This document shows, one piece after another, positions 21,214-49,144 of a DNA stretch of 64,000 nucleotides. The translations under genes were made by a program, and so were the position numbers. Under the pieces are notes generated by a model. That model saw nothing but the letters and a program-made list of their open reading frames with translations. It ran no database searches and was not told the origin of the DNA. Numbering within the stretch: the first letter of the stretch is position 1; the number at the start of each line of letters is the position of its first letter. The stretch is from assembly GCA_902793685.1 (NCBI GenBank), contig CADBEN010000008.1, positions 1 to 64,000 on the forward strand. Direction: 5' to 3'. This stretch comes from an uncultured Lachnospiraceae bacterium (GTDB taxonomy: Bacteria; Bacillota; Clostridia; Lachnospirales; Lachnospiraceae).

Positions 21214-21243
21214 TTTACAGATGAAACTTGTTTCATGTATGAT
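21214..21243 (+). promoter_or_regulatory. rpiR promoter with palindromic operator (autoregulation)
   Basis: TTTACA (21214-21219), an 18-base spacer and TATGAT (21238-21243). The spacer holds the palindrome ATGAAAC-TT-GTTTCAT (21221-21236). Its other strand contains the core GAAACAAGTT that recurs in the rraA-like and tctC promoters. Further ATGAAA half-sites lie just downstream. The position inside the spacer suggests repression by the encoded RpiR protein. Confidence 0.7.
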
Positions 21244-21285
21244 GAAATCAGAAGCAAATGAAACCTGGACTGAAGGGTAGGGGAA

Positions 21286-22206
21286 ATGGAAAACAGAAAG
21301 ACGATCATCGAGGGGCAGAGCGAACTTAGGTCAAGGATCGGGCTGTACCGTCCTAAATTCAATGCCACGCAGAACCGGATCGCGGAATTCCTGCTGGCGG
21401 ATGAGCAGGCTGCTCTGGATATGAGCATCTATGAGATGGCGGAAAAGATCGGCACCAGCGTGGCGACGGTGACCCGTTTCTGCCAGATGATCGGCTACAG
21501 CGGCCTTGCGGAGATGAAGTTTCATATGCAGCAGCAGGCCGTCAGCCTGGAAAAGGACATCGGCATCACCCGCAGCGACAGCGTCAACGTGATCAAGCAG
21601 AAGATGATGCGCTTCAGCGAAAACGCGCTGCACAGCTGTCTAATGGACCTGAACAATGATGCGCTGGAAGGGGCTATCGACATCGTCGGAAAAGCAAAGC
21701 GGATCATGCTGACGGCCAGCGGAAGTGCCGGCGGCGTCACCCATACTGCCGTGGGCCTTTTTATGAATATGGGATTTGACGCCTTTATGGTCAGTGACCA
21801 GCTGCTGCAGCTGCGGACGGCGGCAAATCTCGGAAAAGACGATGTGCTGATCGCTGTGAGTTATGACGGCCGCGCGAAAAGCACGGGTGACGCCATGATG
21901 GTGGCGCAGAAAGCCGGCGCCAGGGTGATCCTTGTCACATCCCTCAGCGATTCGCTGCTGAGCCGGCATGCGGATATCGTCCTTCTGACACCGGCCAGAG
22001 CTGCAGGAAACGCCATGAACATCACCGCGACAGCCCTCTGCCAGCTGAGCATCCTTCAGCTCCTGATGATCGGGGCTGTGACCCGCTACTATGACCGGTT
22101 CCATGAGAAGAGCAGGCTTCAGCTGAAGATCAGTGACCTGGACCGTTACGATATGAAGCAAAAGGAGATCACGGTGAATGCCGTGAGAAGCGATACAGAG
22201 AACTGA
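21286..22206 (+). CDS. MurR/RpiR-family transcriptional regulator
   Basis: The protein has 306 residues. An N-terminal RpiR helix-turn-helix (about residues 15-85, containing EMAEKIGTSVATVTRFCQMIGYSGLAEMKF) is joined to a C-terminal SIS domain (about 125-260, LTASGSAGG ... VSYDGRAKSTGDAMMVAQKAGA). SIS domains of this family usually sense a phosphorylated sugar or sugar acid. The gene stands first before the carboxylate cluster and is followed by a strong terminator, so it is transcribed separately. An operator palindrome in its own promoter recurs upstream of two neighbouring operons, making it their likely regulator. Confidence 0.92.
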   Translation: MENRKTIIEGQSELRSRIGLYRPKFNATQNRIAEFLLADEQAALDMSIYEMAEKIGTSVATVTRFCQMIGYSGLAEMKFHMQQQAVSLEKDIGITRSDSVNVIKQKMMRFSENALHSCLMDLNNDALEGAIDIVGKAKRIMLTASGSAGGVTHTAVGLFMNMGFDAFMVSDQLLQLRTAANLGKDDVLIAVSYDGRAKSTGDAMMVAQKAGARVILVTSLSDSLLSRHADIVLLTPARAAGNAMNITATALCQLSILQLLMIGAVTRYYDRFHEKSRLQLKISDLDRYDMKQKEITVNAVRSDTEN

Positions 22207-22211
22207 ATACA

Positions 22212-22353
22212 GGTTTCAGGTCCCGCTTGCGGGACCTGAAACCGCACAGGCTGCCGTCAGGCAGCAGCTTTTACTGCCATGTGATTCAGCGGGGGCAGCA
22301 TTCAGGGAAAGAGCAGACATTGTTTCCCGGAATGCTGTCTCCGCTGTTTTTTT
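22212..22353 (+). terminator. Triple hairpin with terminator after rpiR
   Basis: A perfect hairpin GGTTTCAGGTCCCGC/GCGGGACCTGAAACC (22212-22243) is followed by a small GGCTGCC/GGCAGC hairpin. A 16-bp hairpin (22288-22303 with 22330-22345) and seven T residues then form the actual terminator. Confidence 0.8.
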
Positions 22354-22385
22354 GTTTCCGAAGCCATATACCGGCACTTCTGTAG

Positions 22386-22473
22386 AAACTGCACAAAATC
22401 AGCAGCTGTGTATTGTACATAGTTACAAATTTAAAAATAATACTTGAAACAAGTTACATTCGGGTGTATGCTG
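22386..22473 (+). promoter_or_regulatory. Promoter module A with operator, driving the rraA-like operon
   Basis: TTGAAA (-35, 22445-22450), 17 bases, TATGCT (-10, 22468-22473). The -35 is the left part of the operator TTGAAACAAGTTACAT (22445-22460). The 60 bases upstream, from AAACTGCACAAAA through AGTTACAAATTT, recur almost base for base before tctC (26857 onward). Confidence 0.75.
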
Positions 22474-22516
22474 ATTCCAGAAACAAGATACATATATAAA
22501 AAGCGAACGAGAAATA

Positions 22517-22544
22517 AGAAACAAGAAACAAGAAACAAGAAACA
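22517..22544 (+). repeat. Four tandem AGAAACA heptamers in the rraA-like leader
   Basis: Four perfect head-to-tail copies of AGAAACA, with degenerate copies on both sides, lie between the promoter and the start codon. Each junction reads GAAACAAG, the left part of the operator core. They may be spaced half-sites for the regulator or an unstructured leader spacer. Confidence 0.8.
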
Positions 22545-22619
22545 AGAACCACCTTTCAGAGCAGCTGTAACAGATCCATCCGGTACACATTAAAAACCTA
22601 ACTCAGGAGGAAAAGAATC

Positions 22620-23321
22620 ATGGCAGTTGGAAAGAGAATCTATCTCAAGAGAAATATGCCCGATCATGACGTTATGATGCAGTTCAAGAACATCCCGGCA
22701 TCCAACACCGCGGACTGCATGGGAAGAAGCTGCGCGATGAACCCCAGGATCCACCTGGTGTCCAGCCCCAAGGACCAGATGATGGTGGGACCGGCCTTCA
22801 CCGTGAAGTGCCGTGCCGGCGATAACCTGGCCCTCCACGCTGCACTGAACCTCTGCAACGAAGGCGACGTCCTGGTCGTTTCCAACGAAGAGGACAACAC
22901 CCGTGCACTGATGGGCGAGGTCATGATGGCTTATCTGTACCTTCAGAAGAAGGTTGCCGGCATCGTCCTCGACGGCCCGATCAGAGACATCGATGAGATC
23001 GGCAAGTGGGATTTCCCGGTCTATGCCACCGGCACCACCCCGGGCGGCCCCTACAAGGAGGGCCCGGGCGAAGTGAACGTCCCGATCGCCTGCGGCGGCA
23101 TCAGCGTTGAGCCGGGCGACATCATCCTGGCGGATCCGGACGGCGTCATCGTCATCCCGAGAAACGACGCAGCCACCATCCTTGAGGATGCGAAGAAGTT
23201 CCAGGCGGCCGATGAGGGTAAGCTTGAGAAGACCCGTCAGGGCACCATCAACCGCAGCTGGGTCGACAAGGCGCTGGAAGACAAGGGCTTCGAGTTCATC
23301 GACGACGTGTACCGCGTCTGA
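22620..23321 (+). CDS. RraA-family aldolase/decarboxylase
   Basis: The protein has 233 residues. It shows the RraA/HMG-aldolase core: GPAFTVKC, GEVMMAYLYLQKKVAGIVLDGPIRD (catalytic Arg and Asp) and a DPDGVIVIPR segment. Members include 4-hydroxy-4-methyl-2-oxoglutarate aldolase and oxaloacetate decarboxylase, both metal-dependent C-C lyases yielding pyruvate; the RNase E inhibitor role belongs to another branch. Codon use is strongly biased (AAG, GTC, ATC, ACC), suggesting high expression. It is the first gene behind promoter module A and has an AGGAGG site. The catabolic neighbours favour an enzymatic role. Confidence 0.88.
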   Translation: MAVGKRIYLKRNMPDHDVMMQFKNIPASNTADCMGRSCAMNPRIHLVSSPKDQMMVGPAFTVKCRAGDNLALHAALNLCNEGDVLVVSNEEDNTRALMGEVMMAYLYLQKKVAGIVLDGPIRDIDEIGKWDFPVYATGTTPGGPYKEGPGEVNVPIACGGISVEPGDIILADPDGVIVIPRNDAATILEDAKKFQAADEGKLEKTRQGTINRSWVDKALEDKGFEFIDDVYRV

Positions 23322-23340
23322 GCAGGAAACTGAAAGATAG

Positions 23341-23372
23341 TTCCGGGCCGGTCCCAGACAGCCGGCCCGGAA
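23341..23372 (+). other. Intercistronic hairpin
   Basis: TTCCGGGCCGGT/AGCCGGCCCGGAA around a short loop, without a T tract. It probably shields the upstream message or sets the ratio of the two gene products. Confidence 0.5.
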
Positions 23373-23481
23373 CATGAAACGAAACATAAAACACGGAACA
23401 CAGACAGACACCAGAAAACAGAGAAAGAGTATCAGAGATACATGAGCAGGCCGGCGATGGACCGGCAGAAGGGAGCGCAAC

Positions 23482-24510
23482 ATGGGTTGGAAGATTTTAC
23501 TGCCGCAGGAGATCATGTCCGAGGGAAGAAAGCTGCTTGAGGATGCAGGCCACGAGCTGATCATGGGCCGCGGCTTCGAGACCGAGGATGTCCTCGAGGA
23601 TATGAAGAAGTATCAGCCGGACGCTATGATCGTTCGCATCACCCCCATCACCAGAGAGGTCATTGAGGCCAATCCGAACCTGAAGGTCATCGTCCGCCAC
23701 GGCGCCGGTTTCGACACTGTGGACCTCAAGGCCTGCGAAGACAACAATGTCAAGACCCTGTATGCTCCGGTCGCAAACAGCACCTCCGTCGCTGAGACCG
23801 CTCTGCTCCTGATGTTCGAGACCTCCAGAAACGTCACTGTCCTTCACAAGACCTGGGTTAACGAGTTCTACAAGGCAAAGCTGAAGGTCAGAAAGAACAC
23901 CCTGAACGGAAAGACCCTGGGCCTGATCGGCTGCGGAAACATCGGAAGCCGCGTCGCTGTCAGAGCTCTGGCTCTTGAGATGAACGTTCTGGCTTACGAT
24001 CCCTACAAGCCGGCGAAGGATTTCCCGGACGGTGTCGAAGTTGTCCGTGACCTGAACCGTATCTTCAAGGAGTGCGACTATGTTTCCCTGCACGCACCGG
24101 CGACCCCGGTCACGAGAAACATGGTCAACAAGGAGACGCTGGCCATGATGAAGCCCACCGCCATCCTGATCAATACCGCCCGCGGCGCTCTGGTGGTGGA
24201 GGAAGATCTCTACGAGGCATGCAAGAACGGTGTCATCACCGCTGCAGGTCTTGACGCGATCCGTCAGGAGCCGGTGGATCCGAAGAACCCGCTGCTTACT
24301 CTGGACAACGTCATCATCTATCCGCACATCGGCGGCAACACCGTCGAGGCTGCCCACAGAGCGTCCTATTTCTCCGCCATGGGCATCCAGGAGGTCTATG
24401 AGGGCAAGGAGCCCACATGGCCCATCCACAACATCGACTACACCACCGCGAAGACCTATGACGACGTGAAATTCCCGACCAAGAAGCCGGCAGGAATGTT
24501 CGATTTCTGA
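23482..24510 (+). CDS. D-isomer-specific 2-hydroxyacid dehydrogenase (SerA-like)
   Basis: The protein has 342 residues. The NAD-binding loop is GLIGCGNIGSRVA (about residues 152-164). The catalytic triad is present: Arg in INTARGALV, Glu in RQEPVDP, His in YPHIGGNT. It reduces a 2-oxo acid or oxidises a D-2-hydroxy acid. There is no C-terminal ACT domain, so classic feedback-regulated SerA is unlikely. It follows the RraA-like gene by 160 bases and ends with a strong terminator. A second enzyme of the same family lies at 25814, so the pair probably handles successive or alternative 2-hydroxyacids. Confidence 0.9.
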   Translation: MGWKILLPQEIMSEGRKLLEDAGHELIMGRGFETEDVLEDMKKYQPDAMIVRITPITREVIEANPNLKVIVRHGAGFDTVDLKACEDNNVKTLYAPVANSTSVAETALLLMFETSRNVTVLHKTWVNEFYKAKLKVRKNTLNGKTLGLIGCGNIGSRVAVRALALEMNVLAYDPYKPAKDFPDGVEVVRDLNRIFKECDYVSLHAPATPVTRNMVNKETLAMMKPTAILINTARGALVVEEDLYEACKNGVITAAGLDAIRQEPVDPKNPLLTLDNVIIYPHIGGNTVEAAHRASYFSAMGIQEVYEGKEPTWPIHNIDYTTAKTYDDVKFPTKKPAGMFDF

Positions 24511-24567
24511 TCACAGAATTGATCAAAAGTTACTGAGCTTTGCTCAGCTCCTCCAAAAAAGAAGGCG

Positions 24568-24605
24568 AGCCTGCCGCGTATCTGCGCGGCAGGCTTGTCT
24601 TTTTT
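24568..24605 (+). terminator. Terminator after the first hydroxyacid dehydrogenase
   Basis: A perfect 11-bp stem AGCCTGCCGCG/CGCGGCAGGCT with a six-base loop, followed by TGTC and six T residues. Confidence 0.88.
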
Positions 24606-24797
24606 ACAGTAAAGACCCCGCAGGCGGCCGCCTGCCTGACAGCAAAACGGGGCAACAACATAATAGTTGTCGGAAAATGAAATATATACTGTTAGACATT
24701 GTGAAATGCGGGAATTACACTGTACTTGGAAACAAAATCAACGAATATGAATGTATTGGATTTCATAAAGGGCTTTATAGAAAGAGAGGACAAAGCA

Positions 24798-25799
24798 ATG
24801 AGCGTTACGTTGATGGACTGCACCCTGAGAGACGGAGCAAATGTGGTCGGCAAGGGATTTGACGCGGAGATCACCGACATGGTGCTGGACGGCCTGACGG
24901 CGGCAGGCGTGCCGATCATCGAATTCGGAAACGCCGGCGGCATCGGTGCGTATGAGGTGGCTGGTTTTACCCAGGCAGAGACCGACGATACCTACCTTGA
25001 GATCGTGCAGAAGTACCTGAACCGCGGTTCCGAGATCGGCATGTTCCTGAACGCGAAGCGCTACCGCAGCCACAACGTCCTGAAGGCAAAAGACAACGGC
25101 CTCGCCTTCCTCCGTGTCGGCGCGGACGCGGGCGATGCCGACATCTCCATCCAGCCGGTGAAGGAGATCAAGGAAGCAGGCCTGAAGGCGTTCTATTCTC
25201 TTATGAAGGCGTACCTTCTGACCCCGGACGAGCTGGCGGAAGAGGCGAAGAAGCTGGAGGCTGCCGGTCTTGACGAGATCACCATCATGGATTCCGCAGG
25301 AACCATGACGCCGGACCAGGTGGTGCAGTATACGAAAAAGCTGAAGGCTGCGGTGAAGATCCCGGTGGCATTCCACTGCCACAACAATCTGGGCCTCTCC
25401 GCGGCGAACGCCATCGCGGCCTATGAGAACGGCGCGGACATCCTGGACTGCGGCCTCATGGGCATGGCGAGAAGTGCGGGAAACCTGGCGACGGAGATCT
25501 GTGTGGCCATCATGCAGCGCTACGGCGAGATGAAGGACATCGACCTCTTCGGCATGCTGGACTTCATCGACACCCGCCTGCAGCCTGCCATGGCGAAACA
25601 TGACTATCACAACCCGGTGACGCCGCTGGATCTGACCCTGGGCATCTCCGGCTGCCATTCCAGCTTCCTGAAGACCTTCAAGGCGGTGGCGAAGGAAGAG
25701 CAGGTCAATCTTTTCAAGCTGATCTGCGAGGTCTCCGCCATCAACCAGAAGAACCCGAACGAAGTGCTGATCCGGGAAATCGCGGGAAAGCTGAAATAA
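24798..25799 (+). CDS. HMGL-like (DRE-TIM) aldolase, related to 4-hydroxy-2-oxovalerate aldolase
   Basis: The protein has 333 residues. The metal and catalytic signature DCTLRDGAN appears at residues 7-15, and FHCHNNLGLSAANAIAAYENGAD carries the His pair that completes the divalent metal site. This puts it in the HMG-CoA lyase / oxovalerate aldolase family, which cleaves or joins pyruvate- or acyl-type units. No acetaldehyde dehydrogenase partner (DmpF/BphJ) is nearby, so the dmpG-type channeling pair is absent. The start at 24798 has AGAGGA upstream; an in-frame ATG at 24726 has no such site. An inverted repeat CAACAACATAATAGTTGTCG lies further upstream. Confidence 0.85.
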   Translation: MSVTLMDCTLRDGANVVGKGFDAEITDMVLDGLTAAGVPIIEFGNAGGIGAYEVAGFTQAETDDTYLEIVQKYLNRGSEIGMFLNAKRYRSHNVLKAKDNGLAFLRVGADAGDADISIQPVKEIKEAGLKAFYSLMKAYLLTPDELAEEAKKLEAAGLDEITIMDSAGTMTPDQVVQYTKKLKAAVKIPVAFHCHNNLGLSAANAIAAYENGADILDCGLMGMARSAGNLATEICVAIMQRYGEMKDIDLFGMLDFIDTRLQPAMAKHDYHNPVTPLDLTLGISGCHSSFLKTFKAVAKEEQVNLFKLICEVSAINQKNPNEVLIREIAGKLK

Positions 25800-25813
25800 A
25801 GGAGGGGCAGATC

Positions 25814-26791
25814 ATGATGAAAGTCGTTCTCGCGGGAACCTATCCCGCACACACCTATGAGAAGCTCAGGAAGCTGCTGCCGGCGGATCAGTTCGACTTC
25901 GTCGCGGTGGACAGCCAGGAAGCGTATGACGCCATGACGGATGCGGAGATCATGATCCTCCGGATCTTCAAGGCGCCGAAAGAGGTGATCGAGCGCAATC
26001 CGAATCTGAAAATGATCCTGCGCTGGGGCGCAGGCTTTGACTCCGTGGATATCGAGGCTGCAGGCGCCAGGGGGATCCTGGTGACCAATACCCCCGGCGC
26101 CAACGCGAACGCAGTGTCGGAGCTTGCTGTGACGCTGATGCTGACTGTATACCGGAAGATCCTGGAGCACACGGACAGCCTGAGAAGCGGCGCGTGGAGC
26201 AAGAACACCTACCTGAATTCCAGCTTCAGCCTGTTCGACAAGACGGTGGGGATCGTCGGCGGCGGGAACATCGGCCGCCAGGTCGCCCTGAAGGTGCAGG
26301 CATTCGGCGCGGAAGTACAGTATTATGACGCGTTCCGTCTGCCTGCGGAGACGGAAGAGAAATTCAATATGAAATATGTTTCACTGGAGGAGCTCCTGAA
26401 GACCTCCGACATCGTCACCCTGCATGTGCCGCTGCTGGATTCCACCCGCCACATGATCGGGGAGGACCAGATCAAGTCCATGAAGGACGACGCGGTGATC
26501 ATCAACACGGCCCGGGGCGGCCTGGTGGACGACAAGGCGCTGTGCGCCGCGGTGAAGGCAGGAAAGCTTCTGGGCGCGGGCCTGGACGGCGTGGAAGAGG
26601 AGCCGCTTCCGGCGGGACATGAACTGCTCACGACGCCGGGCATCGTGGTGACGCCCCATGTGGGCGGCGGTACGGCTGACATCGGCGATGTCATCATGCC
26701 GATGCTGGCGAAGGACATCTGCGATTTCGCCGGGACCGGGGACTGCGCACATGTGGTGAACCGGAAGTATCTGCAGCCGGAGAAGAACTGA
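25814..26791 (+). CDS. D-isomer-specific 2-hydroxyacid dehydrogenase (second copy)
   Basis: The protein has 325 residues with the NAD loop VGIVGGGNIGRQVA (about 142-155) and catalytic Arg (INTARGGLVDD), Glu (EEEPLPAG) and His (TPHVGGGT). It begins 14 bases after the aldolase stop behind GGAGGGG, so the two form one transcript. It is clearly diverged from the copy at 23482, so they are paralogues with probably different substrates rather than a recent duplication. The likely product or substrate is the 2-oxo/2-hydroxy acid handled by the adjacent aldolase. Confidence 0.9.
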   Translation: MMKVVLAGTYPAHTYEKLRKLLPADQFDFVAVDSQEAYDAMTDAEIMILRIFKAPKEVIERNPNLKMILRWGAGFDSVDIEAAGARGILVTNTPGANANAVSELAVTLMLTVYRKILEHTDSLRSGAWSKNTYLNSSFSLFDKTVGIVGGGNIGRQVALKVQAFGAEVQYYDAFRLPAETEEKFNMKYVSLEELLKTSDIVTLHVPLLDSTRHMIGEDQIKSMKDDAVIINTARGGLVDDKALCAAVKAGKLLGAGLDGVEEEPLPAGHELLTTPGIVVTPHVGGGTADIGDVIMPMLAKDICDFAGTGDCAHVVNRKYLQPEKN

Positions 26792-26856
26792 TCCGGACAG
26801 GGGAGACCCGCATCGTGGAAATACGCGTTCCCATGACCGAAGGCGGTAAAACTGTA

Positions 26857-26942
26857 AAACTGCACAAAAACAGAACAGTGATTTGTGCAGAGTTACAAAT
26901 TTGTAAAAATCACTTGAAACAAGTTACATTATCGTGTAGTAT
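26857..26942 (+). promoter_or_regulatory. Promoter module B with operator, driving tctCBA
   Basis: TTGAAA (26914-26919), 17 bases, TAGTAT (26937-26942). The operator TTGAAACAAGTTACAT (26914-26929) is identical to the one in module A. A perfect 14-base palindrome TTACAAATTTGTAA (26893-26906) sits just upstream; module A keeps only its left half. Confidence 0.75.
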
Positions 26943-26972
26943 GTAACCAGAAACAAGAAACAAACAAAAATC

Positions 26973-26988
26973 ATGAAACAAGTTAACA
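26973..26988 (+). promoter_or_regulatory. Second operator-like site in the tctC leader
   Basis: ATGAAACAAGTTAACA repeats the GAAACAAGTT core about 35 bases downstream of the -10. Two sites on the same promoter could allow looping or a roadblock by RpiR. Confidence 0.6.
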
Positions 26989-27053: not shown

Positions 27054-28109
27054 ATGAAGAAGATGTTTGCTGCTGCTCTCGCTCTTACCATGGCTGCCCT
27101 GACCGCCTGCGGCGGATCCTCCGCTCCGGCCACCACCGCTGCTCCGGCTGCCACCGCTGCTGCTCCGGCTGCTGCCGCTGACACCACCGCTGCCGCTGCT
27201 GCAGCAGAGACCGACTGGCCCACCGGCACCGTCAACGTCACTGTTCCCTACAACGCAGGCGGCGACACCGATACCTACTGCCGCGCCCTGTTCGACCGTA
27301 TCGCGAAGAAGACCGGCCAGAACTTCGTCGTCACCAACCTGACCGGCGGATCCGGAATGGTCGCAGCGATGGATGTCATGCAGAAGAAGCCGGACGGCTA
27401 CACCATCCTCTTCAACCACACCGGCGCATCCCTTGTCCAGGAAGCCACCGGAACCGCTGAGTTCTCCTACACCAACGACTTCGAGAACTGCGCCACCGTC
27501 GCTCTGGATCAGACCTACGCTCTGTGCGCAGTCTCCCCGGACGGCCAGTACAAGCAGTACAGCAAGGGCTTCAAGGATCTGCCGGGCATGATCGAGTACG
27601 CGAAGGCAAACCCGGGCGCAGTCCGTTACTCCACCGTCTTCGGTTCCACCACCGAGTATGTCGGAAACCGTCTCCAGAAGCTGGCTGACATCCAGTTCGA
27701 CAACATTGACGTCGGAACCTCCACCGGTGACCGTCTCGCAGCACTTCTTGGCGGCCAGGTCGAGCTTGGCGCTTACAACTACATGAACGTTGCCGATTAC
27801 ATCGAAGCCGGCGATCTGGTCTGCCTCGGCATCATGGCAAACGAGAGAGTCGACGGCATCGACTTCCCGACCTTCAAGGAGCAGGGCTACGATGTTGTCA
27901 ACGCGAAGAAGTACGAGGTCAAGTTCCCGAAGGGCACCGATCCGGCCATCGTCAACAAGCTTTCCGCACTGTGCAAGGAAGTCGCTGAGGATCCGGAGTT
28001 CGCAGAAGTCCTGAAGACCTACTACGCAGAGCCCTACTACCGCGATGCTGCGACCATGAACGTCGAGGATCCGGCTGAGGTCGAAGAACTGAAGGCCAAC
28101 CTCCAGTAA
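27054..28109 (+). CDS. tctC: TctC/Bug-type solute-binding lipoprotein of a tripartite carboxylate transporter
   Basis: The protein has 351 residues. The ATG at 27054 follows GAAAGGAG and opens a lipoprotein signal peptide (lipobox LTAC) and an Ala/Thr-rich linker. The mature protein shows Bug-family features: VTVPYNAGGDTD near the N-terminus, NLTGGSGMVAAMDVMQKKPDGYTILF, and a GTSTGDRLAALLGGQVELG motif. It captures a carboxylate outside the cell and hands it to the TctAB membrane unit. Codon use is extremely biased, as for an abundant protein. A hairpin after the stop probably lets only part of the transcription continue into tctB. Confidence 0.92.
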   Translation: MKKMFAAALALTMAALTACGGSSAPATTAAPAATAAAPAAAADTTAAAAAAETDWPTGTVNVTVPYNAGGDTDTYCRALFDRIAKKTGQNFVVTNLTGGSGMVAAMDVMQKKPDGYTILFNHTGASLVQEATGTAEFSYTNDFENCATVALDQTYALCAVSPDGQYKQYSKGFKDLPGMIEYAKANPGAVRYSTVFGSTTEYVGNRLQKLADIQFDNIDVGTSTGDRLAALLGGQVELGAYNYMNVADYIEAGDLVCLGIMANERVDGIDFPTFKEQGYDVVNAKKYEVKFPKGTDPAIVNKLSALCKEVAEDPEFAEVLKTYYAEPYYRDAATMNVEDPAEVEELKANLQ

Positions 28110-28152
28110 TCTGAACATAACAAGAGGCTGATAATTAAGAGCTGATCACAGA

Positions 28153-28189
28153 GCCGCCCGACCCAGAACAACGGGCCGGGCGGCCTTTG
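28153..28189 (+). terminator. Partial terminator between tctC and tctB
   Basis: GCCGCCCGACCC/GGGCCGGGCGGC hairpin (one A-C mismatch) followed by only three T residues. The weak T tract fits read-through at reduced level, giving excess binding protein. Confidence 0.65.
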
Positions 28190-28228
28190 TATCCGGAAGC
28201 TCTGTAAGAAATAAAGGAGAATATGAGT

Positions 28229-28699
28229 ATGACGAACAAACAGCGTAATCTCCTGACCTCCGTCCTATTCCTGGTCTTCGGTGTCTTCATGTTCATCCAA
28301 TCCCAGGGCGTGAAGCACAAGATCGCAAGCGACGTCGGTTCAGGCTATGTCCCCGCATTCATCGCAGGCTGCCTCATCGTGGTCTCTGTTTCCAAGCTGA
28401 TCATCACCCTCACGAGAAAAGATCCGGCGGACAATGTGAAGAAGCAGAGCGATTCCAGCACCAAGGGCGGCATCGTGACCATCCTCATCATGCTGATCTA
28501 CATGCTGGCCTTCGAACCGGTGGGCTTCATCGTTTCCAGCATCCTGTTCCTGTTCGCGCTGATGAACTGGTTCGCGAATAATGAGAACCGCAACATTCCG
28601 CTTTTCGCCATCATCTCGGTCCTTCTTCCGGTGGCGGTGGACGCACTCTTTGTTTTTGTCATCAAGATGCCGCTTCCCAAGGGCATCATCGGATTCTGA
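28229..28699 (+). CDS. tctB: TctB small membrane subunit
   Basis: The protein has 156 residues with four hydrophobic segments (about 10-28, 40-62, 82-102 and 105-150), the standard TctB layout. The ATG at 28229 is preferred because AGGAG lies 9 bases upstream; an in-frame ATG at 28223 is only 3 bases from that site. It is the small subunit of the sodium-driven tripartite tricarboxylate transporter and acts with TctA, whose gene starts 19 bases downstream. Confidence 0.88.
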   Translation: MTNKQRNLLTSVLFLVFGVFMFIQSQGVKHKIASDVGSGYVPAFIAGCLIVVSVSKLIITLTRKDPADNVKKQSDSSTKGGIVTILIMLIYMLAFEPVGFIVSSILFLFALMNWFANNENRNIPLFAIISVLLPVAVDALFVFVIKMPLPKGIIGF

Positions 28700-28717
28700 G
28701 AAAGGAGGAGCAACTGA

Positions 28718-30259
28718 ATGGTACCTGCAAATATGGTAGCGGAAGCGTTTGCCAATACATTTACCCCCATGTGTCTGTTCCTCATCTGGTTCGGCACCAT
28801 CATCGGAATCATCTTCGGATCCATCCCGGGCCTGTCCGCAACGATGGCAGTCGTCCTGTTCCTGCCCCTGACCTTCGGCATGGAGACCACCCAGGGCCTC
28901 GCGCTTCTCTGCGGCCTGTACATGGGCGGCATCTCCGGCGGTCTGATCTCCGCCATCCTCTTAAAGATCCCCGGCACCCCGTCCTCCATCTCCACCGTGT
29001 TCGACGGCGGTCCGATGGCAGAGAAGGGTGAAGCGGGGCGCGCCCTGGGCGTCGGCATCCTGTTCTCCTTCCTGGGCTCGGTCCTCGGAATCTTTGCTCT
29101 GATGTTCGTCTCCCCGCTGCTGGCTAAGGTCTGCCTTCTCTTCAGCGCGGCGGACTACTTCGCAGTCGCGGTCTTCGCCCTTTCCATCATCGCATCCCTG
29201 TCCGGCAAGGACATGCTGAACGGTCTGATCGCAGGTCTGATCGGTATCGCCCTTTCCATGGTCGGTATGGCACCCATCGACGCGGTGGTCCGCTTCACCT
29301 TCGGAAACTACCAGCTGATGTCCGGCTTTGACATCACGGTCCTTCTGATCGGTGTCTTCGCGATCACCGACATCATCCTCGCCGGTTTCGACAGAGATCA
29401 TCTGGCGGACAAGATGGAGAAGAAAAAGTATAAGCTGAAGGGCTACGGCCTTTCTGTGCAGGAATTCATCGAGCAGATCCCGAACACCATCATCTCTTCG
29501 ATCATCGGTATCGGCATCGGCATCCTGCCCGGCATCGGCGGCTCCACCTCCGGCCTTCTGGCCTACACCACGGCCCGCAACCGTTCCAAGTATCCGGAGA
29601 AGTTCGGTACCGGCATCATCGACGGCGTCATCGCTTCCGAGACCGCGAACAACGCCACCATCGGCGGCTCCATGATCCCGCTGCTCTGCATGGGTATCCC
29701 GGGCAACACGGTCTCCGCCATCTTCCTGGGCGGCCTTCAGGTCCACGCCATCAGCCCGGGTCCGCTGATCTTCAACAAGTCCGGACAGTACGTCTACGGT
29801 ATTTACCTGGCCCTCATCATCTCCTCGATCTTCATGCTGATCTTCGAGAGAGCTGGCCTTCCGATCTTCGTAAAGCTGCTTGATATCCCGAAGCACATCC
29901 TGCTTCCCTGCATCGTGGTCATGTGCTGCGTCGGCGGATACTCCTCCAACAGCCGTGTCTTCGACGTCCAGTGCATCCTGTTCTTCGGTCTCCTGGGCCT
30001 TCTGTTCAAGGTCCTGAAGATCCCGAGCACCCCGCTGATCATCGGCTTCATCGTGGGCAGCATGTTCGAAGAGAACCTGCGCCAGGCGCTGCAGGCCGGA
30101 CACGGCAGCTGGAGCATTTTCCTGACCCGTCCCATCGCCATGGGCTTCCTGATCATCACCGTGATCTCCTGCGTGATGACCGTGCGGAAGAACATGCAGG
30201 AGAAGAAGGCCGCGGAAGCTGCAGGCAAGGAATTCGATACTGCCGAGGAAGAGGGCTGA
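28718..30259 (+). CDS. tctA: TctA large membrane subunit
   Basis: The protein has 513 residues and 11-12 hydrophobic segments. It shows the TctA hallmarks: GSIPGLSATMAVVLFLPLTF near the N-terminus, GGISGGLISAILLKIPGTPSS, and a related GIGILPGIGGSTSGL ... NNATIGGSMIPLLCMGIPG in the second half. These paired re-entrant loops bind substrate and sodium. An AAAGGAGG site precedes the ATG. The C-terminus is charged and cytoplasmic. It completes the tctCBA operon. Confidence 0.93.
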   Translation: MVPANMVAEAFANTFTPMCLFLIWFGTIIGIIFGSIPGLSATMAVVLFLPLTFGMETTQGLALLCGLYMGGISGGLISAILLKIPGTPSSISTVFDGGPMAEKGEAGRALGVGILFSFLGSVLGIFALMFVSPLLAKVCLLFSAADYFAVAVFALSIIASLSGKDMLNGLIAGLIGIALSMVGMAPIDAVVRFTFGNYQLMSGFDITVLLIGVFAITDIILAGFDRDHLADKMEKKKYKLKGYGLSVQEFIEQIPNTIISSIIGIGIGILPGIGGSTSGLLAYTTARNRSKYPEKFGTGIIDGVIASETANNATIGGSMIPLLCMGIPGNTVSAIFLGGLQVHAISPGPLIFNKSGQYVYGIYLALIISSIFMLIFERAGLPIFVKLLDIPKHILLPCIVVMCCVGGYSSNSRVFDVQCILFFGLLGLLFKVLKIPSTPLIIGFIVGSMFEENLRQALQAGHGSWSIFLTRPIAMGFLIITVISCVMTVRKNMQEKKAAEAAGKEFDTAEEEG

Positions 30260-30469: not shown

Positions 30470-31630
30470 ATGCTTCTTATAAAAAACGGACATGTGATCG
30501 ATCCGCTGAACGGAACCGACCGGGTCTGCGATGTTGCTGCGGACGGTGCCCGGATCCTGAAGACCGGCGAGAATCTCCCGGCAGATCCGAAGGACAATGT
30601 GATCGATGCTTCCGGATGCTATGTGGTTCCGGGACTTATCGACCACCACGCCCATGTGCAGCCCCTGGCGAAGATCGGTCTTCCCACGGAGGCCAGCTGC
30701 TTTGCTTCCGGCGTCACCGCCGTGGTGGACGCGGGAAGTACGGGATGCGCGAACTACATTTATCATCAGGGGATCCTGGAGCGTCTCAGGGTGAACGTGC
30801 TGGCTTATCTGAATGTCTGCACCACAGGCCTTGACAGTCTTCCGGGATGCCTTGAGGACGTGAATCCGGCCCACTGGGACCGGGGCGCCATCCGGGAATG
30901 CTTTGACCGTTTCGGGCAGAAGGCCGGCGGCCGTCTGGCGGGGCTGAAGCTCCGCACCAGCGAACCGATCGTGAAGGATCTGGGCTACAAGGTGCTGGAG
31001 GAGACAGTGAAGCTCGGTGAGGAGCTGGGCGTCTCCGTGATGGTGCACTGCACCAATCCGCCGGGACCGCTGGCGGATCTTCTGAACCTGCTTCGTCCCG
31101 GGGATACCATCACCCATATGTACATGAACATCGGCCCCAATCTGCTCAACGAGAAGGGAGAGGTCATTCCGGAAGCCTGGGAAGCCAGGGAGCGGGGCGT
31201 TTATTTTGAGGCGGCCGATGCCAGAGCCCATTTCGGAATGCCGGTGGCCCAGGCAGCCATCGCCCAGGGCTTCCTTCCGGACTTCATCGCCACGGACACT
31301 ACGAAGCTCAGCATGAACCTGCGGCCCACGGCCTTCAGCATGGCCATGCAGATCGCGAAGTATACGGCCCTGGGCATTCCCTTTGAGAAGGTGATCGAGT
31401 GCGCCACCGTCAATCCGGCCCGGCAGCTCGGGCTTCTGGACCGTGCCGGTTCCCTGACTGCGGGACATCCGGCGGACATTGCAGTGTTCCGTCCGGTGGA
31501 TATGGAGACGGTCCACGGCGACCGGCCCTACGGCGTTCCCGAGCAGCACACCATCGTCGGACACCGGGTGTACCAGCCGGTGCTGACCGTGAAGAATGGT
31601 GAGATGGTATACCGCGACGTGACATTCTGA
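30470..31630 (+). CDS. Metal-dependent amidohydrolase (dihydroorotase/EF_0837-like)
   Basis: The protein has 386 residues. An N-terminal composite beta-sandwich leads to the metal motif GLIDHHAHVQP (residues about 57-67). Further ligands are a Lys in LAGLKLRTSE (candidate carboxylated lysine), His in VMVHCTNPPG and THMYMN, and Asp in FIATDTTKL. This is the amidohydrolase superfamily pattern, closest in layout to the EF_0837/AHA_3915 group of uncertain amide, imide or ester hydrolases. It lies after tctCBA but has its own -10 and terminator. It could release the carboxylate from an imported amide; this is inference. Confidence 0.82.
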   Translation: MLLIKNGHVIDPLNGTDRVCDVAADGARILKTGENLPADPKDNVIDASGCYVVPGLIDHHAHVQPLAKIGLPTEASCFASGVTAVVDAGSTGCANYIYHQGILERLRVNVLAYLNVCTTGLDSLPGCLEDVNPAHWDRGAIRECFDRFGQKAGGRLAGLKLRTSEPIVKDLGYKVLEETVKLGEELGVSVMVHCTNPPGPLADLLNLLRPGDTITHMYMNIGPNLLNEKGEVIPEAWEARERGVYFEAADARAHFGMPVAQAAIAQGFLPDFIATDTTKLSMNLRPTAFSMAMQIAKYTALGIPFEKVIECATVNPARQLGLLDRAGSLTAGHPADIAVFRPVDMETVHGDRPYGVPEQHTIVGHRVYQPVLTVKNGEMVYRDVTF

Positions 31631-47035: not shown

Positions 47036-49144
47036 ATGGAAAAAGCGATTCCGATCCCCGAAATCTACGGAAGTCTGGTTTTTAACGACAAGGTCATGAA
47101 GGACCGCCTCCCGAAGGATATCTACCGTGCAGTTCGCAAGACCATCCAGAACGGAACGCACCTGGAGCTCGATGTGGCGAATGCGGTCGCGGCGGCCATG
47201 AAGGAATGGGCTGTCGAGAACGGTGCCACCCACTTCACGCACTGGTTCCAGCCGATGACCGGTCTGACCGCGGAGAAGCATGACAGCTTCATCTCCCCGG
47301 AGGAGAACGGCGGGATCCTGATGGAGTTTTCCGGAAAGGAGCTGGTGAAGGGCGAGCCGGACGCGTCCAGCTTCCCCTCCGGCGGTCTGCGCGCCACCTT
47401 TGAGGCCCGCGGGTACACCGCGTGGGATCCGTCCTCGCCCGCGTTCATCAAGGACGGTTCGCTGTACATTCCCACAGCTTTCCTGTCTTACGGCGGAGAG
47501 GCACTGGATAAGAAGACGCCGCTGCTCCGCTCCATGCAGGCGCTGAGCACAGAGGCGGTGAAGCTTCTGCAGCTGATAGGCGAGAAGGATGTGACCAGGG
47601 TCACCGCGACCATCGGCTCCGAGCAGGAGTACTTCCTGATCGACAAGGAGCTTTTCCTTCAGAGAAAGGATCTTCTGCTCTGCGGCAGAACACTCCTCGG
47701 GGCAAACGCGCCGAAGGGCCAGGAGATGGAGGACCATTATTTCGGAGTCCTGAAGCCGAAGGTCGCCGCCTTCATGCACGACCTGGATATGGAGCTCTGG
47801 AAGCTGGGAATTCCGGCGAAGACCAAGCACAACGAGGTCGCGCCGGCACAGCACGAACTGGCGCCGGTCTATGAGACTGCGAACGTGGCAGCGGACCACA
47901 ACCAGCTGACCATGGAGATGATGAAGAAGGTGGCGGACCGTCACGGTTTTGCCTGCCTGCTTCATGAAAAGCCCTTCGAGGGAATCAACGGTTCCGGAAA
48001 GCACAACAACTGGTCGATCCAGACCAACACCGGCATCAACCTGATGGATCCCGGCAGGCATCCGGGCGAGAACCTGCGTTTCCTGACCTTCCTGATCGCG
48101 GTGATCGCAGCGGTGGACAAGTACGCGGATCTCCTGCGCGTTTCCGTCGCGACGGCAGGAAACGACCACCGCCTCGGCGCCAACGAGGCGCCGCCGGCCA
48201 TCGTCTCCATCTTCCTGGGCGAGGATCTTACAAGGGTCCTGGACGCGATGGAAAAAGGGGAATTCTTCGACGGGGCAGGCAAGAAGCAGATGGAGACCGG
48301 CGCCCTGGTGCTGCCGCACTTCATGCGGGACACCACGGACCGGAACCGCACCTCGCCCTTTGCCTTCACCGGAAACAAGTTCGAGTTCCGCATGCCGGGT
48401 TCCGCCCTCTCTGTGGCGAACCCCAACATCGTCCTCAACACCGCAGTGGCGGATATCCTTTCCGACATGTACGACGAACTGAAGGGAGTCCCGCAGGAGG
48501 AGCTCTCCGACGCACTGAAGGAGCTGCTGCGGAAGATGCTGACTGAGCACAAGAAGGTCCTCTTCAACGGGAACGGTTACACGGATGAGTGGGTGAAGGA
48601 AGCGGAGAGCCGCGGCCTCGACAACCTGAAGTCCCTGCCGGACGCGATGCCGCGCTGGATCTCCGAAAAGAGCGTGCGTCTCTTCACGAAGCATCACATC
48701 CTCACGAAGGAAGAGCTTCTGTCCCGCTACGAGATCGTCCTCGAGAACTATTCCAAGGCGATCCACATTGAGTCCCTGACCCTGCAGGAGATGGTCCGGA
48801 AGGATTTCGCGGACGGCATGATCGCCTACGTGAAGGATCTCGCGGAGGTGCTCGGCGCCCGCCGCACCATACTTCCGTCCCTGGCCTGCGCGGCAGAAGA
48901 GAAGCTGCTTACAGAGCTGGATGCGGACGCGGCGAAGATAAGCGAAGGCCTGGAGAAGCTGGCTGCGGACACAAAGAAGGCCGAGGCGGCGGAAGACGAA
49001 CTGGAGCGCGCGACGATCTACGAGGCGCAGGTCCTCTCCGACATGGTCGGGCTTCGCGAGTATATCGACCACGCGGAGACTCTGATCCCGGACCGTTACC
49101 TGCCGTATCCGACCTACGGGAAGATCCTGTTCTCGACACTGTAA
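47036..49144 (+). CDS. glnA: Glutamine synthetase type III (GlnN-like)
   Basis: The protein has 702 residues, the length of type III enzymes (types I and II are about 360-470). Type III features are an N-terminal region with [21 protein letters not shown], then active-site segments [10 protein letters not shown] (metal Glu), [33 protein letters not shown] and [20 protein letters not shown]. It makes glutamine from glutamate, ammonia and ATP. An AAAAGGAGG site precedes the start. It is the entry point of the nitrogen block, placed just before gltBD and carAB, which use its product. Confidence 0.95.

Follow-up and report, generated by a model that had tools for sequence, protein, structure and literature searches.

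The window analysed here, a stretch of 64,000 nucleotides from an uncultured Lachnospiraceae bacterium (contig CADBEN010000008.1 of assembly GCA_902793685.1, positions 1 to 64,000 of the forward strand), carries a gene for an RpiR-type regulator, rpiR, followed by genes for an RraA-like aldolase (rraA), an HMGL-like aldolase, two D-2-hydroxyacid dehydrogenases and a tripartite tricarboxylate transporter (tctC-tctB-tctA). The promoters of rpiR, rraA and tctC share a 14-letter mirror sequence, TGWAACNNGTTWCA, through which one RpiR protein appears to control this set of acid-uptake and acid-breakdown genes. Below, O1 denotes the main operator and O2 an element upstream of it at the rraA and tctC promoters. 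The genome that holds the window (G000) is a draft of 2.54 Mb in 63 contigs, 94.6% complete; that of its sister species (G637), also a draft, is 82% complete with 5% contamination. The main features of the locus are:

rpiR operator, 21221-21236: ATGAAACTTGTTTCAT, in the spacer between the -35 TTTACA (21214-21219) and the -10 TATGAT (21238-21243); first of the three exact matches in the genome
rpiR, 21286-22206, plus strand: HTH_6 and SIS regulator, the proposed binder of the sites (PF01418, 52.8 bits, cut-off 28.3; PF01380, 54.6 bits, cut-off 25)
rraA operator O1, 22444-22459, plus strand: covers the -35 (TTGAAA); second exact genome match; orthologous site with a changed centre in G637
RraA-like aldolase gene, 22620-23321, plus strand: PF03737, 154 bits; NCBIfam PRK06201, 241.9 bits, cut-off 231
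D-2-hydroxyacid dehydrogenase gene, 23482-24510, plus strand: PF02826, PF00389; probably co-transcribed with rraA
HMGL-like aldolase gene, 24798-25799, plus strand: PF00682; has its own promoter region
second D-2-hydroxyacid dehydrogenase gene, 25814-26791, plus strand: PF02826, PF00389; carries an intragenic site
tctC operator O1, 26914-26929, plus strand: covers the -35 (TTGAAA); third exact genome match; orthologous site on a different contig in G637
tctC-tctB-tctA, 27054-30259, plus strand: tripartite tricarboxylate transporter (PF03401, PF07331, PF01970)
amidohydrolase gene, 30470-31630

Judged by promoter hexamers, the shared site falls in the spacer at rpiR and overlies the -35 box at both rraA and tctC, and the palindrome at 21221-21236 is perfect, just as the initial annotation of this locus had it. 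That annotation had defined the shared operator by a 10-base core, GAAACAAGTT, said to occur in exactly four places. All four positions are right (21225-21234 on the minus strand, 22446-22455, 26916-26925 and 26975-26984), and there is a fifth exact copy at 48372-48381, whose 16-base context scores 6.4 bits on a profile built on O1 (the profile behind the site scores given here unless another is named) and which was set aside as an operator at that score. With up to one mismatch the core has six matches in the window, as against 1.77 +/- 1.30 in shuffled sequence, where none of 100 shuffles reaches six. While an operator common to the three promoters holds, its motif is better described as the palindrome TGWAACNNGTTWCA than as the 10-base string: the latter is not the true core, the palindrome centre being free to vary, because the central bases differ in all three sites of the sister species. 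A reading of the core as a palindrome of its own, ACTTG-AAA-CAAGT, was dropped, since its symmetry is broken by the sister sequence ACTTGAAACATGT; the form TGAAACATGTTACA found there is palindromic save for one outer pair.

The motif is rare in the genome. The string TGAAACAAGTTNCA, with at most one mismatch, is found at three places in 2.54 Mb, namely the three promoters, which are likewise the sites of the three exact matches to TGWAACNNGTTWCA, a pattern drawn up only after the sister-species sites had been seen. Allowing TGWAACNNGTTWCA one mismatch gives 11 places, as against three in the control, and seven one-mismatch places fall outside the rpiR-tct locus. The longer TGAAACNNGTTTCA matches at 8 places with up to one mismatch, half of them (4/8) in the rpiR-tct locus, and at 53 with up to two (39 for the reversed control). 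Scatter at background frequency, which had been named as grounds for giving up the proposal, is thus not seen, and the compact regulon inferred from the position of the sites gains from both this rarity and the recurrence of the motif at the same three promoters in the sister species.

We surveyed seven genomes of the genus (G000, G637, G633, G634, G635, G636 and G072), among which RpiR orthologues are confined to G000 itself, G637 (83% identical) and G633 (67%), with only a 27% identical relative in G636. G637 has three exact TGWAACNNGTTWCA matches, those of rpiR and rraA on one contig (L020, from a metagenome-assembled genome of an uncultured Lachnospiraceae) and that of tctC on a second. 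On the latter, the aldolase-dehydrogenase-tct genes adjoin apparent transporter and lacZ genes and do not lie behind serA. Each of these sites reads TGAAACATGTTACA on one of its strands, so that the operator centre is AT in 3/3 sites of G637, AA or TT in 3/3 of G000 and AA in a remnant of G633. Profiles built on either species alone put the three sites of the other on top (18.8-22.9 and 19.4-19.9 bits) when run over the window and two G637 stretches. At rpiR, 14 of the 16 operator bases are kept in G637, as are 27 of the 30 bases in the block from -35 to -10, whereas only 63 of 146 positions of the upstream flank and 21 of 42 downstream are identical. A contig titled as planctomycete (L021) has an rpiR 99% identical to that of the window (in two overlapping pieces), an rraA 93.5% identical and the same two sites, followed by genes of other make-up; it is perhaps chimeric or mislabelled, and we counted it as an odd contig of the same strain or of one very close to it, not as a separate case.

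G633 presents a case of loss. Its rraA stops after about residue 85, being 84% identical up to there (L078 5645-5900); the promoter of this remnant is homologous and recognisable, with an operator one mismatch off (TGGAACAAGTTACA, 19.6 bits). At the rpiR promoter of G633, by contrast, lies none of the eight best sites of its contig (L018), and only a half-site, TGTTTC, is left by eye; behind this rpiR is a transposase-like gene pair (IS66-like by eye). The pattern, a single case, is compatible with relaxed selection after breakage of the target. Exact TGWAACNNGTTWCA matches in the other genus mates are two in G634, which flank a LacI-type gene and have a CG centre, and one in a coding start in G635, with none in G633, G072 or G636. 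Six of the ten one-mismatch places of G633 were viewed: a pair next to a LacI-type gene (L038), another pair near apparent phage-type genes on contig C6 (L077), one within a GntR-type gene (L018) and one at the rraA remnant (L078). The LacI-type genes at L037 7079-8181 and L038 6927-8015 are flanked by sites of the TGTAACCGGTTACA kind and lie near ribokinase-like and sugar-transport genes, likely constituting a LacI regulon in genus mates. The consensus of the CcpA cre and of the LacI site has a CG centre. Such a centre is present in the LacI-type sites of G633 and G634 but absent from the main sites here, and we rejected their assignment as cre or LacI sites.

The set of sites given earlier proved incomplete, having missed both the upstream element O2 and a likely intragenic site. 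The second tctC site that it placed in the leader does contain the core copy, in a context that makes it a weak site. These additional sites are:

rraA upstream element O2, 22413-22428, plus strand: TTGTACATAGTTACAA, starts 31 bp before O1, with the same spacing in G637; 12.2 bits on the O1 profile, which is chance level
tctC upstream element O2, 26883-26898, plus strand: TTGTGCAGAGTTACAA, starts 31 bp before O1; outside the window's 25 best O1-profile sites
likely intragenic operator, 26369-26384: within the second 2-hydroxyacid dehydrogenase gene, 545 bp before tctC O1; 17.4 bits
weak tctC leader site, 26973-26988, plus strand: outer bases of one arm missing; 14.3 bits, as against 23.6-24.3 at the promoter sites

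In both species the pattern TTGTRNNNNGTTACAA begins 31 bp before O1 at rraA and at tctC, with a like element 32 bp before O1 in the G633 remnant. Its exact matches, two in G000 and two in G637, all lie at these promoters, and its one-mismatch counts are near those of the controls. O2 and O1 together span 47 bp (26883-26929 at tctC). For the leader site, about 0.18 sites of at least 14 bits are expected per 64 kb (expected counts throughout being from simulated sequence), and G637 has a weak leader site of 13.6 bits at nearly the same offset (58 as against 59 bases).

The intragenic site is likely a real operator. Sites of 17.4 bits are expected at 0.025 per 64 kb, or about one per 2.54 Mb, so that a 17-bit site should turn up about once per genome and the score alone could be chance. 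However, the codons that spell it, AAA TAT GTT TCA, make up the only run of four A/T-ending codons among the 317 windows of a gene in which 18% of codons end so, and across 12 genes of the window they make up 0.16, 0.40, 0.12 and 0.03, respectively, of the codons for their amino acids. The 16-mer is identical in G637, where it lies 480 bp before tctC O1; the four codons are unchanged there while the gene as a whole is 85% identical and neighbouring codons have changed. A paralogue 94% identical on contig C20 of G000, with a LysR-type gene adjacent, reads AAG TAC GTT TCC and has no site. Such an intragenic operator could serve in looping to tctC or in blocking read-through from the aldolase-dehydrogenase unit.

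The protein belongs to the RpiR family by its N-terminal HTH_6 and C-terminal SIS domains (Pfam); inverted repeats at own and target promoters, a trait usual in the family though not strictly defining, are also present, as far as sequence can tell. It falls below the NCBIfam equivalog cut-offs for HexR (110.9 bits, cut-off 296), MurR (90.4, cut-off 408) and AlsR (94.1, cut-off 400). At E <= 1e-12 one RpiR was found in G000 and one in G637, and the helix-turn-helix recognition segment GTSVATVTRFCQMIGYSGLA is identical in the two. We infer from adjacency, co-occurrence and its being the sole RpiR found in the genome that the window RpiR binds the sites. As for its ligand, we take the S-x-S-G loop of the SIS domain to be the phosphate-binding loop. 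The solved relatives read SYSG (MurR, 7en6) and SQSG (8k3b), while the orthologues read SYDG in 3/3 cases (residues 192-195), with Asp in place of the usual, though not defining, Ser/Thr. The third place is Ser in ten of 13 other RpiR relatives (Thr, Glu and Pro once each) and in 5/5 class-level relatives. The phosphate-binding loop is described as highly conserved among RpiR regulators in the excerpted text of a preprint (PMC12713135). Because Asp stands where the relatives mostly have Ser, the ligand may be something other than a sugar phosphate; that it is unphosphorylated is put forward tentatively. The genes around the sites include no sugar-phosphate enzyme.

Accommodating these features, we consider it very probable that RpiR is an autorepressor with operators at the rpiR, rraA and tctC promoters. 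An RpiR dimer would sit on TGWAACNNGTTWCA, which at rpiR lies in the promoter spacer and at rraA and tctCBA covers the -35 box, and would there exclude RNA polymerase and so repress transcription. It would be released by an inducer; this is probably formed from the imported acid in metabolism and is perhaps no sugar phosphate. At rraA and tctC the weaker site 31 bp upstream, about three helical turns away, would face the same side of the helix, and a tetramer may hold both. Crystal structures of RpiR regulators are tetrameric, and for Escherichia coli MurR a tetramer has been suggested to span a pair of neighbouring sites at the -35 and -10, 47 bp in total (excerpts of preprint PMC12713135). 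Bridging by a tetramer here is possible, if somewhat doubtful. The intragenic and weak leader sites would probably act as auxiliary or road-block sites for tctC. The most elaborate version, in which a Ser-to-Asp RpiR repressor senses an unphosphorylated hydroxy- or oxo-acid and loops as a tetramer through the promoter, 31-bp-upstream, leader and codon-preference-defying intragenic sites, is unlikely to be right as a whole.

Several observations weigh against a repressor regulon of this kind. The intact set is seen in two species only, both as draft assemblies; the promoter hexamers are weak evidence (seven found, 3.6 +/- 1.8 in shuffles); a control locus, L065, has a 16.3-bit site in an unrelated place; and a duplication of about 100 bp links the rraA and tctC promoters, so their shared operator is not independent evidence. 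The last point could be taken further, with the repeats being mere leftovers of promoter duplication and of A-rich AAGAAAC leader repeats; the leaders do carry AGAAACAAG repeats (e.g. 22517-22544), which may be the source of the leader copy at 26973. We regard this as extremely unlikely, given that the rpiR promoter lies outside the duplication and has no other similarity to the rraA and tctC promoters, yet holds the same palindrome, and that the centre change in all three G637 palindromes requires selection or repeated copying. Another regulator, such as a LacI-family protein, might instead bind the palindromes and leave RpiR a bystander: the TGTAACCGGTTACA-like sites flanking the LacI-type genes of G634 and G633 fit, or nearly fit, the same arms. 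These sites have the CG centre, however, which is absent from all six promoter sites in G000 and G637 (the LacI genes of G000 lay outside the search), and the palindrome lies in rpiR's own promoter and is exact at these promoters only where an rpiR orthologue is present, which makes this, too, highly improbable.

Activation of the promoters by an RpiR bound at the sites is likewise highly unlikely, although the family does contain activators, a further point against repression: S. pneumoniae NanR (excerpts of PMC12713135) and, as far as the excerpted text of PMC6528599 goes, GlaR, ClaR and Bacillus subtilis GlvR. NanR has its sites some 55 bp ahead of the -35 (PMC12713135, in part), whereas the main sites of the present locus overlie the -35 or occupy the spacer, one of them at the regulator's own promoter. 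For O2 the balance is closer. That it is a weaker RpiR site is somewhat probable; a different protein would be the lesser but appreciable alternative, the left arm of O2 departing from TGWAAC, the form TTGTA-N6-TACAA being present in 3/4 promoters, and the O1-profile scores (10.7-13.7 bits, and less than 6.1 for the window's tctC copy) being at chance level. Against a different protein, O2 contains an exact half-site, GTTACA, about three turns from O1; both exact matches to its pattern in each genome lie at these promoters, which does not suggest a global regulator; and it fits the pseudo-palindrome TTGT-N7-8-ACAA from which Pseudomonas HexR represses (PMC5489143, in part).

The proposed control by RpiR from these sites has partial parallels in known systems. 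HexR governs glucose catabolism, and the main operator here is TGWAACNNGTTWCA, in addition to the distance noted in NCBIfam scores. E. coli MurR is, like the window protein, a helix-turn-helix and SIS repressor, with a two-site span of 47 bp that matches O2-O1 (PMC12713135, excerpts), but its regulon is for N-acetylmuramic acid and its loop reads SYSG. Pseudomonas RccR resembles the window protein in its small regulon and in having a site at its own gene; one promoter carries a pair of sites separated by 68 bp, and a further site falls within the open reading frame of pckA (PMC5489143, excerpts). It differs in its TGTAGT/ACTACA sites with longer spacers, its part in primary carbon metabolism and its ligand, 2-keto-3-deoxy-6-phosphogluconate (KDPG). 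NanR shares near-palindromic sites (18 bp), a dimer-tetramer equilibrium and a degenerate half-site near the main site (PMC12713135, in part), but responds to a sugar phosphate besides being an activator. AguR, an RpiR-like protein of lactic acid bacteria likened here by description and not by sequence, has a non-sugar regulon inferred by comparative genomics, in its case for agmatine utilisation (PMC3616900, in part). A compact, self-controlled RpiR regulon is a prediction well supported by sequence, new in detail and ordinary in kind. In the open-licence literature no paper combined three of five terms for this module, and five operator strings matched only seven papers, on mammalian material going by title.

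Other family genomes have the same genes and lack a close RpiR. A match to rraA at 1e-70 is present in 12 of 397 family genomes including G000; in the other 11 the best RpiR match is 8.2e-29 at 27% identity, and 14 regions upstream of their rraA, serA or tctC (up to 400 bp each, one of 306 bp) score at most 10.4 bits, as against 22.8-25.3 for the main operators. A LysR-type gene lies near the module in 5/5 of their loci that were viewed by eye. Outside the genus, close RpiR relatives were found in none of 298 other family genomes at 1e-40 and none of 391 other order genomes at 1e-35, a sample that may overlap with that of the family. Four of 390 other class genomes have a relative at 1e-40 (29-35% identical), and none of nine other window proteins was found in the loci of these four.

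The locus offers a small, testable regulon for an uncharacterised Lachnospiraceae RpiR, linked to a transporter of the tripartite tricarboxylate type and to an RraA-like aldolase. Its Ser-to-Asp change makes it possible to ask directly whether SIS regulators can respond to ligands that carry no phosphate, and with the intragenic site one can ask whether an RpiR protein acts by looping or as a road-block.

A few further observations concern the surroundings of the sites. The string CCAGAAAC (26949-26956 and 22477-22484) lies near the expected transcription start at tctC and rraA, and the two species agree in it at both promoters. The rraA leader has tandem AAGAAAC repeats at 22517-22550, and a terminator-like inverted repeat (24558-24605) follows the first dehydrogenase gene. 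None of the 25 best window sites falls at the promoter of the HMGL-like aldolase gene. A second copy of this gene and of the second dehydrogenase gene (96% and 94% identical) lies on contig C20 of G000 (L055 7183-9188); it lacks RpiR sites and has as neighbours a LysR-type gene, a transporter gene and an amidohydrolase gene. The HMGL-like aldolase promoter contains a conserved near-palindrome, ACAACATAATAGTTGT, at 24655-24670, with altered forms in the C20 copy and in G637 (L055, L036); since the C20 copy adjoins a LysR-type gene, this is possibly a LysR-type box.

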